64,000 nucleotides of DNA. Origin: Levilinea sp. (GTDB taxonomy: Bacteria > Chloroflexota > Anaerolineae > Anaerolineales > Anaerolineaceae). Shown in pieces: positions 12,671-39,736 of this stretch (within the stretch, counting starts at the first letter, position 1; every line of letters starts with the position of its first letter). The notes under the pieces are model-generated. The model had not been told where the DNA came from. It saw only the letters and a list, made by a program, of their open reading frames with translations, and made no database searches. The DNA lies in NCBI GenBank assembly GCA_029975215.1, contig JARKPO010000003.1, positions 124,001 to 188,000 of the forward strand, in the 5' to 3' direction. The translations under genes were made by a program, and so were the position numbers.

Positions 12671-13105
12671 ATGTCTTTTCAAACGGTTATTCTCGTTGGA
12701 AATTTAGGGCGCGACCCTGAGATGCGCTATACCCCCAGCGGCGAGCCGGTGACCAGCTTTTCCGTGGCGACCAGCCGTGAATACACCGGCCGCGACGGCA
12801 AGGTGAAAGAGACCACCTGGTTCCGCATTTCGGTGTGGGGCAAGATGGCCGAAGTGTGCAACAATTACCTGCGCAAAGGCAGTAAAGTGCTGGTGGAAGG
12901 CCGCCTGACCCCTGACCCCGCTACGGGCGCCCCGCGTATCTGGACCAGCAAAGACGGCCGCCAGGGCAGCTCCTATGAGGTCAGCGCCTCGACGGTGCGC
13001 TTCCTGTCCTCGCGCACGGAAGGCGGCGAGGGCGGCGGTTCTTATTCTGGCGGCGGCGAAGATGTGGGCGATATGATGGTGGGTGAAGATGACATCCCCT
13101 TCTAA
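12671..13105 (+). CDS. ssb: Single-stranded DNA-binding protein
   Basis: A 144-residue SSB. The OB fold starts FQTVILVGNLGRDPEMRYTP and continues with ETTWFRISVWGKMAE and KGSKVLVEGRL. A Gly-rich linker leads to the acidic tip DDIPF, which recruits partner proteins. AAGGA lies upstream. The following DUF3467, translin-like and Cas4-like genes all overlap, so ssb heads a compact five-gene operon. Confidence 0.96.
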   Translation: MSFQTVILVGNLGRDPEMRYTPSGEPVTSFSVATSREYTGRDGKVKETTWFRISVWGKMAEVCNNYLRKGSKVLVEGRLTPDPATGAPRIWTSKDGRQGSSYEVSASTVRFLSSRTEGGEGGGSYSGGGEDVGDMMVGEDDIPF

Positions 13106-13439
13106 TCCGGCCCCTGATCCAGCTGAACCTCAGCAGATGATGCGCCTCTCGCCGGATTTGCAGCCCGAATATGTCAACCTGGTGCGCATTACGCATTCTC
13201 CTGCGGAACTGGTGCTGGATTTTGCGCGCATGCTGCCCGGAATCGGTGTGCCGCCGGTGGCCGCGCGTCTGTTGATGTCGCCCACCGGCGCCAAGCTCTT
13301 TTTGCGTGCGTTAGCTGAAAATCTGGCGCGCTATGAGGCGGCTTTCGGCCCCATTCACCTGCCGGGAGAAAAATCCCTGGCCGGTGATTTGTTCGGTTCC
13401 ATTCACCCACCGCAGCCCTCCGATGGAGACAAACCATGA
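13089..13439 (+). CDS. DUF3467 family protein
   Basis: A small protein of about 116 residues. The core YVNLVRITHSPAELVLDFARMLPG followed by MSPTGAKLFLRALAENLARYEAAFG matches the DUF3467 pattern (quoted in parts). The family has no established function but often occurs near genes for DNA-binding proteins. The ATG at 13089 overlaps the ssb coding end by 17 bp and has GGTG upstream. The GTG at 13083 is the alternative start. Confidence 0.75.
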   Translation: MTSPSNPAPDPAEPQQMMRLSPDLQPEYVNLVRITHSPAELVLDFARMLPGIGVPPVAARLLMSPTGAKLFLRALAENLARYEAAFGPIHLPGEKSLAGDLFGSIHPPQPSDGDKP

Positions 13440-14092
13440 GCGGTTTTGATGAAATGCAGCGTTTGAGTGAGATCACCGAGCGCGCCCACCAGGATTTTGA
13501 GGCCCGCAGTCGGGCGCGGGACGAGGCTTTGGCCAATGCCCGCCAGCTCACCCGCCACGCCGCCAACACCATCCGCGCTATTCACCGCGATGAGAGCGAC
13601 CTGGCCGAGGATCTGCTGTCGCAGGCGCGCGACCTGGTGGAAACCATGAAGCGCAACCTGGAGCCTTTCCCCAGCCTGTACTACGCAGGCTACACCCAGG
13701 ATGCCATCAAAGAGTTCGTAGAGGCCAGCATCACCTGCGCCCTCATCCGCCAACAGGCGTTGCCCTCGCCGGAAGAGCTGGGGGTGGAGGTGGCTACCTA
13801 TTACAACGGTCTGGCCGAGGTTCCGGGTGAGCTGCGACGGCGCTGCATGGACATTCTGCGCCAGGGCTATTCCGAGCAGGCTGAACGGCTGCTGTACTGC
13901 ATGGATGAAATCTACACCGTGCTGGTGACGTTGGACTACGCGGACGCCATCACCAATGGGCTGCGCCGCCAGACGGATTTGGTACGCGGCATTGTGGAGC
14001 GCACCCGCGCCGATCTGACCGTCAGCCTGCGCCAGGATTTGCTCAAGCGGTCTTTGGACGCCGTGCTGGAGCGCCTGTCGGACGAGGGTTAA
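13436..14092 (+). CDS. Translin/TRAX family protein
   Basis: A 218-residue all-alpha protein. LYYAGYTQDAIKEFVEASI, PSPEELGV, YNGLAEVPGELRRR and the end segment GLRRQTDLVRGIVERTRADL follow the translin family order. Translins bind single-stranded RNA or DNA as octamers, and TRAX subunits are ribonucleases. The Glu pair E-x-x-E of TRAX is present in KEFVEA, while the later GxxDxxGEL aspartate appears as Glu (GLAEVPGEL). It overlaps DUF3467 by four bases and the next gene by one. Confidence 0.85.
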   Translation: MSGFDEMQRLSEITERAHQDFEARSRARDEALANARQLTRHAANTIRAIHRDESDLAEDLLSQARDLVETMKRNLEPFPSLYYAGYTQDAIKEFVEASITCALIRQQALPSPEELGVEVATYYNGLAEVPGELRRRCMDILRQGYSEQAERLLYCMDEIYTVLVTLDYADAITNGLRRQTDLVRGIVERTRADLTVSLRQDLLKRSLDAVLERLSDEG

Positions 14093-14331
14093 TGCGGACC
14101 CTGCGCGCCTCGGAACTGGGTTCGTTCCTGTACTGCCGCCGCGCCTGGTGGTACCAGCTGCAAGGCATTCGCTCGCAGAACCAGGCCGAGCTGCAGGGCG
14201 GCACGGCCTTTCACCATGAACACGGGCGCAAGGTGGTGCAGGCGCAGATGCTGCGCCTGGGGGCCTGGGCGGCTTTGCTGCTGGCTTTGGTGCTGGCGGC
14301 GGTGGGGCTGACTCTGCTGGTGCTGCATTGA
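14092..14331 (+). CDS. N-terminal part of a Cas4-like protein ending in a membrane helix
   Basis: A 79-residue protein. The opening LRASELGSFLYCRRAWWYQL matches the Cas4/Dna2 N-terminal segment that supplies the first iron-sulfur cysteine. GGTAFHHEHGRKV resembles the RecB-family GxxxH motif. Residues about 57-78 form one hydrophobic helix. The Asp and ExK catalytic parts are missing here but lie in the next gene, which overlaps by TTGA in another frame. Either this is a true two-subunit membrane nuclease or a single gene broken by a frameshift. Confidence 0.75.
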   Translation: MRTLRASELGSFLYCRRAWWYQLQGIRSQNQAELQGGTAFHHEHGRKVVQAQMLRLGAWAALLLALVLAAVGLTLLVLH

Positions 14332-14858
14332 GCGCGGGCGTGATAGGGGTGTTCGTCCTGGCGGCGGCGCTGCTGGCGGCGGCTGTGGTGTTTTTCATCC
14401 AGGCCGCCCGCCGCCAACGTCAGACCGGCCTGCCGGCGGGCAAGGTGATCTATTCCGATACGGGCCTGTGGCGCGAGGTAGAAAAGCCTCTGTTTGATTC
14501 GCTGCTGGGCCTGACGGGCCGCCCTGATTATGTGGTGGACGAAAACGGCCGCCTGACGCCGGTGGAAGTGAAAAGCACCTGGGCGCCGCCGGTTCCCTAC
14601 GACAGCCACATCTACCAGCTGGCAGCTTACTGCCTGCTGGTGGAAAAAAAGACCGGGGTGCGGCCTGCCCACGGCCTTCTGCACTACCGCAACCGCACCC
14701 TGTCGATTCCCTACACGGAGGAATTGGAAACCCGCCTGCTCGACCTGTTGGCGGAAATGCGCCTGGCCGAACGGCGCGGCGCGGCCGACCGTTCGCACGA
14801 GGATCCGGCCCGCTGCGCGCGCTGCGGCTACCGCTCGGTTTGCGATCAGCGCCTGTAG
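14328..14858 (+). CDS. C-terminal part of a Cas4-like PD-(D/E)XK nuclease starting with a membrane helix
   Basis: A 176-residue protein. A hydrophobic helix spans about residues 5-25. GRPDYVVDENGRLTPVEVKST supplies the nuclease Asp and ExK motifs, and IYQLAAYCLLVE is the usual following helix. CARCGYRSVCDQ gives the three C-terminal cysteines of the Cas4 iron-sulfur cluster. Together with the previous gene it completes the Cas4 motif set, interrupted by a transmembrane hairpin. The TTG start at 14328 fits the overlap; a GTG at 14340 is possible. No CRISPR array or other cas gene is nearby. Confidence 0.78.
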   Translation: MSAGVIGVFVLAAALLAAAVVFFIQAARRQRQTGLPAGKVIYSDTGLWREVEKPLFDSLLGLTGRPDYVVDENGRLTPVEVKSTWAPPVPYDSHIYQLAAYCLLVEKKTGVRPAHGLLHYRNRTLSIPYTEELETRLLDLLAEMRLAERRGAADRSHEDPARCARCGYRSVCDQRL

Positions 14859-14881: not shown

Positions 14882-14910
14882 TTGACGGTCTTTGCCGGGC
14901 ATGTGATAAT
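14882..14910 (+). promoter_or_regulatory. Sigma-70-type promoter of the SAM hydroxide adenosyltransferase-like gene
   Basis: TTGACG and GATAAT are 17 bp apart, with a TGn extension. A leader of about 33 nt carries TGAGGA before the ATG. Confidence 0.75.
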
Positions 14911-34164: not shown

Positions 34165-34902
34165 TCAGATGGGCGGCCAGGGATAGGGCCGGCGGTGGTT
34201 TGCCGGGTGTGGAAAACGGGGGGCGGCCAGCAGCCGCCGTCCGCGGCGCAGCAGGGCGCGCACCTCGGCGGGCAGCAGCATGGCGCGCAGCGAGGTGAAG
34301 AGCGGCCCCTCCTGCGCCAGCTCATCCATCACACGGGCCACATCGGCCAGGAGCGGGTCGGGGATGGGCTCTCCGGCAAAATCCCAGATGACCGTGCGCA
34401 GCTTATCTTCCACGTGAAAACAAATGCCGTGGTCAATCACCCACAGACGGCCGTCCGTCCCCAGCAGCAGATGGCCGCCTTTGCGGTCAGCGTTGTTGGC
34501 CAGCAGGTCAAAGACCACCAAAGGCCGCAGGCTCTGTTTTTGTTCGGGGGTCAGGGTGAAAAAATGCACCTGGGGGTCGTGATCCACAAACAACTGCAGC
34601 GAACCTGGGCCGAAGGGGGCGTTCTTATGACGGTAGACGGTGGGGGGGACCAGATCCCAGCCCAGAGCGCGGCTGAGGCGGTAGGCAGCCACTTCGCGCC
34701 GCGCCAACGAGCGCGGCGGGAAATCCCACAGGGGGCTTTCGCCCTGGGTGGGTTTGTAGACCACCTGCAGGGTGCGTTCTTCGTAGACGAGCGTGCCCAA
34801 AAAGGTGCGGTTGGAGCTGTTTAAGAACTGACCTTGCAAAGAGATGTCTCCCCGGTGCAAGGCCAGCAAAATCGGTTCTTGGGTGAGCGGCACAGTCGTC
34901 AC
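34165..34902 (-). CDS. SCO1664 family PI3/4-kinase-like protein
   Basis: A 245-residue protein. VVYKPTQGESPLWDFP, LARREVAAYRLSRALGW, DLLANNADRKGGHLL and WVIDHGICFH resemble the catalytic loop and metal-binding parts of a PI3K/HipA-like kinase. It is best known as the SCO1664 family of Actinobacteria. GTG start with AGGAGG about 11 bases upstream. It is preceded by DUF3090, its usual partner. Confidence 0.8.
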   Translation of the reverse strand: MTTVPLTQEPILLALHRGDISLQGQFLNSSNRTFLGTLVYEERTLQVVYKPTQGESPLWDFPPRSLARREVAAYRLSRALGWDLVPPTVYRHKNAPFGPGSLQLFVDHDPQVHFFTLTPEQKQSLRPLVVFDLLANNADRKGGHLLLGTDGRLWVIDHGICFHVEDKLRTVIWDFAGEPIPDPLLADVARVMDELAQEGPLFTSLRAMLLPAEVRALLRRGRRLLAAPRFPHPANHRRPYPWPPI

Positions 34903-34929
34903 CAGCTGAACGCCCTCCTGAGGGCAGGC

Positions 34930-35457
34930 TCAGTGCTTATGTCCATTGCGCTTGGGGCAAAAATGCCCCTCAGGTTCCATCGGTTGGCCGCAGTAAGGGC
35001 AGATGGGCCGCCCACGGTTGGCAACTTCCAGGCCCCAATGGGCGGCTGCCAGGAGCTGCTCACGCGTGCACCACAAACGGGCCGCATTGCTTTGCTCCGG
35101 GTCGCTTTCTTCGGTCATCACTTCGCGCAGCACCAATCCCACCCGGTCGCGGTCGCTGTCGTAAGCCAGGCCCAGCTCGCCCACGCGGAACCAAGGGTCT
35201 ACCGGCGGCAGGATGTGCATCTGGTCTTCGTGAAACTGCCCGGATTCCAGGGGAAGTTCGGGCAGGCGTTCGTGCAGCTCGTTGAGGAACTGTTCCACCC
35301 CCAGCGCCAGACTGTGCACCTGTACTTTTTCCAAAATGAAGGTCACAGTCTGCTCTGCACCGCGGGCCTGAAGGTAGAAAACCCGTTGGCCCGGCTTGCC
35401 AATGGCATCAATGGTGAGAAAATCAACGGGATCCAGGTCCAATTCTTGAGCGGGCAT
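34930..35457 (-). CDS. DUF3090 family protein with zinc-binding tail
   Basis: A 175-residue protein. GQRVFYLQARGAEQTVTF, EDQMHILPPVDPWFRVGELG and ICPYCGQPMEPEGHFCPKRNGH mark DUF3090. The Cys/His tail should bind zinc. GGAGG lies nine bases before the ATG at 35457. It is adjacent to the SCO1664-type kinase, an arrangement also found in Actinobacteria, so the two likely act together. Confidence 0.82.
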   Translation of the reverse strand: MPAQELDLDPVDFLTIDAIGKPGQRVFYLQARGAEQTVTFILEKVQVHSLALGVEQFLNELHERLPELPLESGQFHEDQMHILPPVDPWFRVGELGLAYDSDRDRVGLVLREVMTEESDPEQSNAARLWCTREQLLAAAHWGLEVANRGRPICPYCGQPMEPEGHFCPKRNGHKH

Positions 35458-35580
35458 GGGGCAATCCTCCTGTGGTGCGCTTAGTATACCAGAATTCAGC
35501 CGCCGGCTGGCAGCTTTTGTGGAAGACTGGGGGCGGGGCATTTTTTAAACTTAAGGCCGGTCAAAAAGCGCGGCGGCTCA

Positions 35581-37831: not shown

Positions 37832-38599
37832 TTAGGCGCGGTCTTTTCCAAAAAAGATGTCCAGATCATTGTTTCCAGAGTTGGCCTGGATCAACTTCGG
37901 CCAGTCAATGGCCCCATCAGGGGTGCAATAGGTCTGGATGAAATGATAGGTTAACGTGTTGGATACCTTGCCGTATTCATCGTGATAGCGGTCGTTGTGT
38001 TCCTTAGCCTTGTATCCGAGTGGTTCAATGATTTCGATGTAAAGGTTTTCATTTCCTGAAATTAGGGTCCAAAAATTCTGTCCAACCACTTTAATATACC
38101 CGTCGTTTGTCGTGGCAGTTTTTGTTTTGCCGTAACAAATCCCCAAAACTTTTTGCACCGCCTTGATATGAGCAGACTGTCTTAGCCTTCTTTCTGCATT
38201 GGCAAAGTCCGTTGTCAGGCGTCTGTGCTGAGATGAGTTTCCCCAATTGGGACCGCTCTTAATAGATATCAGGTAATAAATCCCCTCCCGCTCAAATTCT
38301 AAATCCATGCCAGGGGCTGTGGACTTTTTGCCGTTAATTGTTTTGGAGGCAATGAAAATTGCTAGATCTTCCAGAAAGTCACCAAATAATTTTTCTTCAG
38401 AGCTGGATAAGAAGGCATCGAGTGTGCTTTGAATCAATTCGGAGGCTGTGGTGATGTTTTTTGCGCGAAACAAGTAGGGGTTTTTGTTGGTGAGCTGCCG
38501 CAAAGTTAAATGCGAAATAATTTCAATCCACCGCCGGTGGAAAGATTCAATACTTTGATTGACATAAGTGTAGACTTCATCAAGATTTAAAGAATTCAT
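37832..38599 (-). CDS. Type II restriction endonuclease, PmeII-like
   Basis: A 255-residue protein. NPYLFRAKNITTASELIQ, LSSSEEKLFGDFLEDLAIFIA, PGMDLEFEREG and YLISIKSGPNWGNSSQ match my recollection of the PmeII family, with D...(hydrophobic)SIKSG as the PD-(D/E)XK-type core. It overlaps the methyltransferase gene by 20 bp, so the two are coupled. AT-rich codon use unlike neighbours supports recent transfer. The recognition site is unknown. Confidence 0.8.
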   Translation of the reverse strand: MNSLNLDEVYTYVNQSIESFHRRWIEIISHLTLRQLTNKNPYLFRAKNITTASELIQSTLDAFLSSSEEKLFGDFLEDLAIFIASKTINGKKSTAPGMDLEFEREGIYYLISIKSGPNWGNSSQHRRLTTDFANAERRLRQSAHIKAVQKVLGICYGKTKTATTNDGYIKVVGQNFWTLISGNENLYIEIIEPLGYKAKEHNDRYHDEYGKVSNTLTYHFIQTYCTPDGAIDWPKLIQANSGNNDLDIFFGKDRA

Positions 38600-39557
38600 T
38601 TTTTTTGATGTACTCCTTGGTCACGCGCTCTAGGGCAATTTTGCAGTATTCAGCGCTGGTATCAATGCCTAGGAAGTGGCGGTTTTGTTGGATGGCAGCT
38701 ACACAGGTGGTGCCACTGCCGTTAAATGGATCCAATACCAAATCACCTTCTTCAGTAAATAAACGAATAAACCACTCCGGCAGCGCTACCGGAAACGTGG
38801 CGCTGTGGCTGCGGTTGTAGCATTCTGTGGCCATATGGATAACATTGGAGGGGTAGACCATCTCGCGCCCCACCCAATTGGAAATCTTCTTCCCAAAACC
38901 GGAGCCTACCCTGGAATTATCGCGGCGCTTATCCGTTTCGCTTAAATTTCGCAGCCTGCTCTGAGCCCAATCCCCAACGGGGACCATCACGTTGTCCTGA
39001 AACATCCGGAATTTCTTGGTTCTTGTGAAATGAAAAAGATGCTCCCAGTTATCTCGAAAGCGATTGGGCCATTTCCCTGGATGGCTGTTCTTCTTGAACC
39101 AGATATATTCCTCGGTCCAAAGCCAACCCTGACGCCGCATTTCCAATACTAGTTCCATGACGTACGTGTGTCGTTCACCGTCAACTACCCGCTCCTTGAT
39201 GTTGAGGATGAAAGAGCCTGTGGGTTTTAACACCCGGAAAAACTGCTCTGCCTTTGGCATGAACCATTGCACGTAAGCATCGGGCGCAATACCCCCATAG
39301 GTGGATTTTCTTTGGTCCGCGTAGGGTGGGGAAGTGACGATCAGGTCCACACATTGGTCGGGGAGCTGCTTCAACACTTCCTCGCAATTCCCGTTGACGA
39401 TTTTATCGGTAAACGTTTGCAGATCGTCAGACGAGGGAGGGAGAGAGAGCTCTAACGGTAAGGGAAGATTCAGTTGATCGATCAGCTTTGGCTCTCGAAT
39501 CAAAGCCGAAGGCCGACCTTGGGAATATGCGTTCGGTGTGCATTCTTGGTTTTCCAT
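38580..39557 (-). CDS. Type II DNA methyltransferase (N4-cytosine or N6-adenine)
   Basis: About 325 residues. TSPPYADQRKSTYGG is motif IV (TSPPY) near the N-terminus and DPFNGSGTTCVAA is motif I near the C-terminus, so the order is that of beta-class enzymes. It modifies the amino group of C or A in the site cut by the partner nuclease. The ATG at 39557 follows a TAAAAT box by seven bases and lacks a Shine-Dalgarno. A protective role as part of an R-M pair is well supported. Confidence 0.9.
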   Translation of the reverse strand: MENQECTPNAYSQGRPSALIREPKLIDQLNLPLPLELSLPPSSDDLQTFTDKIVNGNCEEVLKQLPDQCVDLIVTSPPYADQRKSTYGGIAPDAYVQWFMPKAEQFFRVLKPTGSFILNIKERVVDGERHTYVMELVLEMRRQGWLWTEEYIWFKKNSHPGKWPNRFRDNWEHLFHFTRTKKFRMFQDNVMVPVGDWAQSRLRNLSETDKRRDNSRVGSGFGKKISNWVGREMVYPSNVIHMATECYNRSHSATFPVALPEWFIRLFTEEGDLVLDPFNGSGTTCVAAIQQNRHFLGIDTSAEYCKIALERVTKEYIKKNEFFKS

Positions 39558-39564
39558 ACTTTGT

Positions 39565-39570
39565 ATTTTA
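39565..39570 (-). promoter_or_regulatory. -10 box of the R-M operon
   Basis: Minus-strand TAAAAT seven bases before the methyltransferase ATG; no clear -35 box. Confidence 0.45.
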
Positions 39571-39736
39571 CCCAATAAAGCTGTTCGATAGTATCAGGGA
39601 AATCAGTTCTCGAAAGTTTACATCTCTGAAATTCTGGCAGTGAAATCCTTTGTGAAGCACTTGCAACGGTTCATAAGGCAGCAAAAAACATTACAAGCTT
39701 GGATTGCACAAGCCCGATCCCTTTTGGAGCAAATGC

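Follow-up and report, generated by a model that had tools for sequence, protein, structure and literature searches.

A putative two-piece, membrane-tethered Cas4-like nuclease encoded with SSB, DUF3467, and TRAX-type translin genes in Anaerolineae

During the analysis of a 64-kb stretch of Levilinea sp. DNA (hereafter designated the window), we found that the last two genes of a compact five-gene cluster encode the two halves of a Cas4-like protein, each with one predicted transmembrane (TM) helix, and that these halves occupy separate reading frames throughout the phylum Chloroflexota. The pair is rather likely to constitute a two-piece, membrane-tethered Fe-S nuclease of DNA ends, which would be independent of CRISPR and made together with SSB, DUF3467, and TRAX-type proteins in many Anaerolineae. 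The evidence comprises the conserved split, invariant residues shared out over the two chains, co-occurrence, selection, a topological charge bias, and the fold of the joined halves.

The five genes lie on the forward strand and overlap by 17, 4, 1, and 4 bp, just as a preliminary description of this DNA had claimed. The ssb gene (12671–13105) encodes a single-stranded DNA-binding protein of 144 residues with an OB fold (PF00436, 2.8e-30; TIGR00621, 129 bits) and an acidic C-terminal tail ending in Phe (EDDIPF); eight SSB-like matches were found in the genome, that of the operon not being the strongest. The second gene (13089–13439) encodes a DUF3467 protein of 116 residues (PF11950, 1.9e-14; 53.9 bits, cut-off 25), starting with ATG at 13089 or possibly with GTG at 13083, and the third (13436–14092) a TRAX-type translin of 218 residues. 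The Cas4-like N-half (14092–14331; 79 residues), identified with N-half profiles, contains Cys15 (14134–14136) and His41 (14212–14214), followed by one TM helix running to the C-terminus. The C-half (14328–14858; 176 residues; TTG start) begins with a TM helix and continues with the nuclease motifs, including Asp67 (14526–14528), Glu80 (14565–14567), and Lys82 (14571–14573), and three Cys residues, Cys163, Cys166, and Cys172 (14814–14843). Pfam and NCBIfam agree on the family calls made earlier (SSB, DUF3467, translin, and Cas4-like, the Cas4 call applying to the C-half). Since a promoter-like site, picked out by a consensus scan only (14882–14910, forward strand; 10/12 with an extended −10), precedes the next gene, for a SAM hydroxide adenosyltransferase (14950), the five-gene unit probably ends with the C-half. 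In comparison with Levilinea saccharolytica, whose C-half is 95% identical, all five genes are under purifying selection (dN/dS, 0.04–0.12), and because the order also recurs in about 26 species, the arrangement is not due to chance. Elsewhere in the window, the reverse strand carries a type II restriction-modification pair (37835–39575), composed of an EcoO109I-family endonuclease (PF14511, 7e-73) and an N6/N4 DNA methylase, and a gene for a PI3/PI4-kinase-like protein adjoining that of a DUF3090 protein (34168–35541).

The C-half exceeded the cut-offs of both Cas4 models (TIGR00372 cas4, 75.7 bits against 65; PF01930, 38.8 against 22.7) and matched the solved Cas4 8d3l (5.8e-10). The N-half alone gave a weak Cas4 match (PADLOC Cas4, 8e-4), and weak PF01930 matches were obtained for 15 of the 29 N-halves aligned, in which Cys15, Gly37, and His41 are invariant. 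Among 43 aligned C-halves, Asp67, Lys82, Gln97, Cys163, Cys166, and Cys172 are invariant and Glu80 is kept in at least 90%, all these residues being present in the window. Thus, the catalytic set of Cas4 (Asp, Glu-x-Lys, and the Q motif) resides in the C-half, and the four Cys residues required for the Fe-S cluster of Cas4 are provided only by both chains together, Cys15 by the N-half and Cys163, Cys166, and Cys172 by the C-half. A profile of the joined halves aligned the Cys and His residues of the N-half with the N-termini of solved Cas4 proteins (8d3l, 4r5q, and 7mi4), these N-terminal stretches scoring weakly by themselves, and the C-half with the remainder; the TM hairpin stands in for about 15 residues of 4r5q. 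The Cys, His, Asp, ExK, and Gln positions of the halves are presumably the cluster and catalytic residues of Cas4. In some copies of family f30 (among L154, L174, L175, L177, and L178), to which all three natural fusions belong, Ala or Thr replaces the catalytic Asp; in L158, both Asp and ExK have been lost. The predicted activity is therefore not universal, and these copies are possibly inactive descendants.

When one profile per half was run over 400 Chloroflexota genomes, the N-half was found in 114 and the C-half in 119. Both halves were present at 71 loci, representing about 60 distinct genomes because some loci are repeats, and 70 of these loci have them as separate frames with a stop between; the same applies to most GTDB loci (best 80 of 392). 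The protein thus departs from the single polypeptide of Cas4 in about 60 genomes, and the split is present in the isolates Levilinea, Bellilinea, and Anaerolinea. The junction is formed by an ATGA, GTGA, or TTGA overlap, by a short gap, or by a longer interval that can reach about 1.3 kb. Some of these intervals accommodate complete genes, whose products are an L,D-transpeptidase-like protein (named by eye) or a 210-aa protein matching HEAT-type families weakly. Families f5, f12, and f82 keep both halves, which map there to separate contigs or to distant sites of the same contig; 182 kb lie between them in G349 and about 0.9 Mb in G288, and in G208 the distance by contig coordinates is 2.8 Mb (0.5 Mb if the contig is circular). 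Single-frame fusions were found only in G022, G321, and G272, all of f30 and all lacking the catalytic Asp. Outside f30, both halves occur in 91 genomes and the C-half alone in 0, a count not adjusted for relatedness; an N-half match stands alone in 8 genomes, at least 5 of these matches lying in large unrelated frames or in a full-length Cas4. These results bear out the earlier recognition of two parts of a Cas4-like nuclease and widen it, since the two-gene split is found across the phylum and did not arise as a local accident. Apparently, the split is an ancient, obligate two-chain arrangement, as judged from the sequences.

The best 80 of the 392 GTDB loci were all from Chloroflexota by title, and the copies outside the phylum came from plasmids. 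Searches of plasmid proteins gave matches in Paludisphaera borealis, three Bacillus subtilis plasmids, Singulisphaera acidiphila, and one Planctomyces plasmid. In Paludisphaera, Singulisphaera, and the B. subtilis plasmids, the small "hypothetical" gene directly upstream of the C-half proved to be the N-half. The plasmid N-halves have the Cys, a GxxxH motif, and a C-terminal hydrophobic segment, the plasmid C-halves start with a hydrophobic segment, and the key residues of both halves are invariant in alignments spanning three phyla. The gene order on the B. subtilis plasmids is DinG-like helicase, 77-aa gene, N-half, C-half, and hfq; on one of them (L271, CP120602.1, 9339–24414), thermonuclease and toprim genes accompany this set, and a Tad/Flp-type pilus cluster lies about 10 kb from the split pair. 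A phage collection searched for the Cas4-like halves gave no match, no split copy was found on viral contigs, and two further viral scans yielded no relative; a phage origin of the pair was thus rejected. The sole viral-contig match (L268) looks by eye like a single-frame phage exonuclease and not like a split copy.

The membrane hairpin proposed in the preliminary description was reproduced as one predicted TM helix per half by hydropathy and by the bias of Lys and Arg residues. TM helix 1 (14260–14328, forward strand; about residues 57–79 of the N-half) is predicted with its N-terminus inside, and TM helix 2 (14340–14405, forward strand; about residues 5–26 of the C-half) with its C-terminus inside, both being helical in the structural model. 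The Lys/Arg bias is 3.1 before and 0.4 after TM helix 1 (29 N-halves) and 0.2 before and 3.6 after TM helix 2 (43 C-halves), from which both soluble domains should be cytoplasmic with the chain break in the outer loop. For modeling only, same-frame pairs were fused by reading the stop codon as Ser. AlphaFold2 folded the L237 pair as one linked chain (15 alignment rows) with a pLDDT of 89 and a pTM of 0.82, a single helix running from the His segment into TM helix 1. Because the chains were artificially linked, their pairing is an assumption of the model and not its prediction. Foldseek matched the joined model to Dna2 (9.5e-6) and type I-C Cas4 (1e-5), then to Cas4/1, ACE1, MGME1, and AdnAB, and the natural fusion L175 (pLDDT, 81) again to Cas4 and Dna2.

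The preliminary description had also noted the absence of CRISPR and other cas genes. Indeed, no CRISPR-like short spaced repeats occur in the 64-kb window; for cas genes, the claim held among the 25 listed of 137 PADLOC families that were matched by 51 window proteins, none of which is a cas family. Cas1 is present in 29 of 55 genomes of the class, and the pair is kept in cas1-less genomes such as G152, G037, and G184. With no linkage to repeats or to cas1/cas2, a CRISPR role of the pair was rejected. A divergent Cas1-like gene with two weak matching stretches was seen on another contig of the same genome (G000:C79:8058-8693).

The translin of the window belongs to the Translin/TRAX family by PF01997 (30.3 bits, cut-off 25.9) and by its TRAX-type acidic residues. 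The family profile matched the archaeal AfTRAX (PDB 3zc1) over the whole chain (2.4e-39), and Glu93, Glu96, Glu128, and Glu132, invariant in 17 aligned bacterial sequences, coincide with the acidic residues of AfTRAX. One of these positions is Asp in 3zc1, Ala in 3zc0, and Glu in all 17 bacterial sequences, and the operon context also differs from that of AfTRAX.

As for the conservation of the gene order, the full five-gene order was counted by hand at 24 of the best 80 (of 392) GTDB loci, in the window, and in G311, amounting to about 26 Anaerolineae species, and five more loci have ssb, translin, and both halves without a detected DUF3467 gene. The order thus extends well beyond close relatives within the class, whereas elsewhere only parts of it are linked: most members of the phylum have the pair at a site other than that of translin, and the adjacency of ssb and DUF3467 to translin is largely confined to Anaerolineae. 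The ssb–DUF3467–translin order is kept through the Anaerolineales loci examined, including those with the pair at another site, and translin adjoins the N-half in f1, f10, f11, f24, and f27. A DUF6909 protein (PF21850, 1e-222) is encoded between translin and the N-half at L132 (3508–5265) of G088. Neighboring genes were read locus by locus, automatic clustering having been polluted by shadow frames. In many Anaerolineae, the genes downstream of the pair are nadK, a B-box gene, and recN; an rseP-like gene precedes the pair in f25, f35, f61, and f64, and a rarA-like gene precedes the C-half in two genomes of f5 (both named by eye). The neighbors recN, rarA, ssb, and the DinG-like helicase gene, together with the occurrence of the pair in cas1-less genomes, favor DNA repair or recombination; since no neighbor is constant, the pathway is not fixed. 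Of the uptake, repair, or defense suggested in the preliminary description, all three are possible, the gene context leaning toward repair or recombination, a role in DNA-end repair or recombination having in our estimate a little less than an even chance.

Several other readings of the pair were weighed. The 4-bp overlap of the window halves in different frames and the three natural fusions in f30 are what would be seen if a single Cas4-like gene had been broken by mutation or sequencing error, or were joined through programmed frameshifting or read-through; however, the split recurs in isolates and, with variable junctions, in about 60 genomes, whole genes or long distances separate some halves, and dN/dS is about 0.04–0.3 for both. 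Frameshift, assembly error, programmed frameshifting, and read-through were accordingly rejected on the isolates, the intervening genes, and the distant loci, and a broken gene is extremely improbable. It is also quite unlikely, if less so, that the C-half is a complete nuclease with the N-half as its regulator or anchor, or that the pair is a catalytically dead membrane scaffold: the C-half passes the cas4 cut-off unaided, and D/ExK is lost in some f30 and f22 copies, but the C-half lacks the first Cys and the His of Cas4, both invariant in the N-half, does not occur without the N-half outside f30, and retains its catalytic residues in the window and in nearly all copies. It is quite likely, from the sequences compared, that the N-half and C-half form one two-chain enzyme.

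The claim that the whole set acts together fared less uniformly, standing on the five-gene order in about 26 species and weakened by the usual separation of the pair from translin elsewhere and by the 109 of 400 genomes that have translin without the pair. There is roughly an even chance that the pair and ssb–DUF3467–translin are mere transcript neighbors with separate jobs, translin being a TRAX-like RNase for RNA turnover. The f2 genomes, which keep ssb–DUF3467–translin together with the pair elsewhere, and the retained AfTRAX acidic residues agree with separate jobs; against them stand the adjacency of translin and the N-half, extending in f24 and f27 outside the class, and a strong co-occurrence, translin being present in 112 of 119 genomes with a C-half against 221 of 400 overall (not adjusted for relatedness). 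The same order and co-occurrence, a plasmid copy near a mobF relaxase gene, and the Bacillus plasmid copies alongside a Tad-like pilus cluster would also suit a dedicated five-gene membrane machine for incoming single-stranded DNA in uptake or conjugation, or for defense. We regard such a machine as unlikely, as linkage of the pair to translin and ssb is the exception outside Anaerolineae, translin often occurs without the pair, and inheritance of the pair looks vertical and single-copy, unlike most defense systems, with no match in the phage collection. That the five genes act as one unit is somewhat less likely than not, and joint action of the pair with SSB and translin is plausible.

Dna2 is an Fe-S nuclease of DNA ends, and its structure (PDB 5ean) was the top Foldseek match of the joined model. 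The pair differs from it in having two membrane-anchored chains and no helicase domain; on the Bacillus plasmids, a separate DinG-like helicase gene is located two genes upstream. The pair shares with Cas4 and solo-Cas4 (PF01930, TIGR00372) the PD-(D/E)XK motifs, the four cysteines, and the His, and differs in its two separately encoded chains, the TM helix on each, and the lack of cas1/cas2 linkage. The Argonaute-associated Cas4-family protein ACE1 (PDB 9iab, 9iac) has a Cas4-type fold (Foldseek, 1e-4) but is a single chain of about 266 residues; its Argonaute link is known from the title only, and none was seen for the pair. Nor is the pair a nuclease fused to a helicase-like domain as in AddB/RecB, its chains having only 79 and 176 residues, and an AddB model gave no match in this genome. 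Solo-Cas4 was reported to be monophyletic in many Chloroflexi, and all Cas4 proteins to have four conserved cysteines (Hudaiberdiev et al. 2017, PMC5704561); Thermoanaerobacterales are named there alongside Chloroflexi. That paper alone was directly relevant among the literature found on DUF3467, bacterial translin, and split or membrane Cas4; its main text does not contain "split" and contains "membrane" only within a gene name. No description of a split or membrane Cas4 was found in the literature searched, which comprised only a minority of subscription journals. Within that literature, the two-chain split and the membrane anchors would be new, Chloroflexi solo-Cas4 having been known before.

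In the mechanism we propose, the products of the last two genes would be the subunits of a single Cas4/Dna2-type nuclease tethered to the membrane. The N-chain would give the first cluster Cys and the active-site His, and the C-chain the Asp, Glu-x-Lys, Gln, and other three Cys residues, the chains pairing through their TM helices and the shared Fe-S cluster. The paired nuclease may then trim DNA ends at the inner face of the cytoplasmic membrane. Many Anaerolineae would produce it along with SSB, DUF3467, and a TRAX-like RNase, whose probable task is to hold single-stranded nucleic acid or to clear it. Rather than CRISPR adaptation, the process served would most likely be DNA repair or recombination close to the membrane. 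In a bolder and rather unlikely form of this proposal, the enzyme is a membrane heterodimer whose single Fe-S cluster and active site are each built from both chains; the cluster thereby holds the subunits to each other and could inactivate the enzyme upon oxidation, and in Anaerolineae the enzyme joins a dedicated SSB, DUF3467, and TRAX-type RNase in one complex serving as a membrane station that processes DNA ends or RNA–DNA strands.

Each solo-Cas4 gene of Chloroflexota has so far been taken to encode a whole enzyme whose function is unknown. Should these genes instead encode only half of an enzyme, with the other half supplied by a micro-protein annotated as hypothetical, assaying the C-half by itself would give misleading results, and the pair would offer a direct test of a metal cluster holding a split enzyme together at the membrane. 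The B. subtilis plasmid copies bring the question to a laboratory species, and the link of ssb, DUF3467, and translin provides a lead on the role of bacterial translins.
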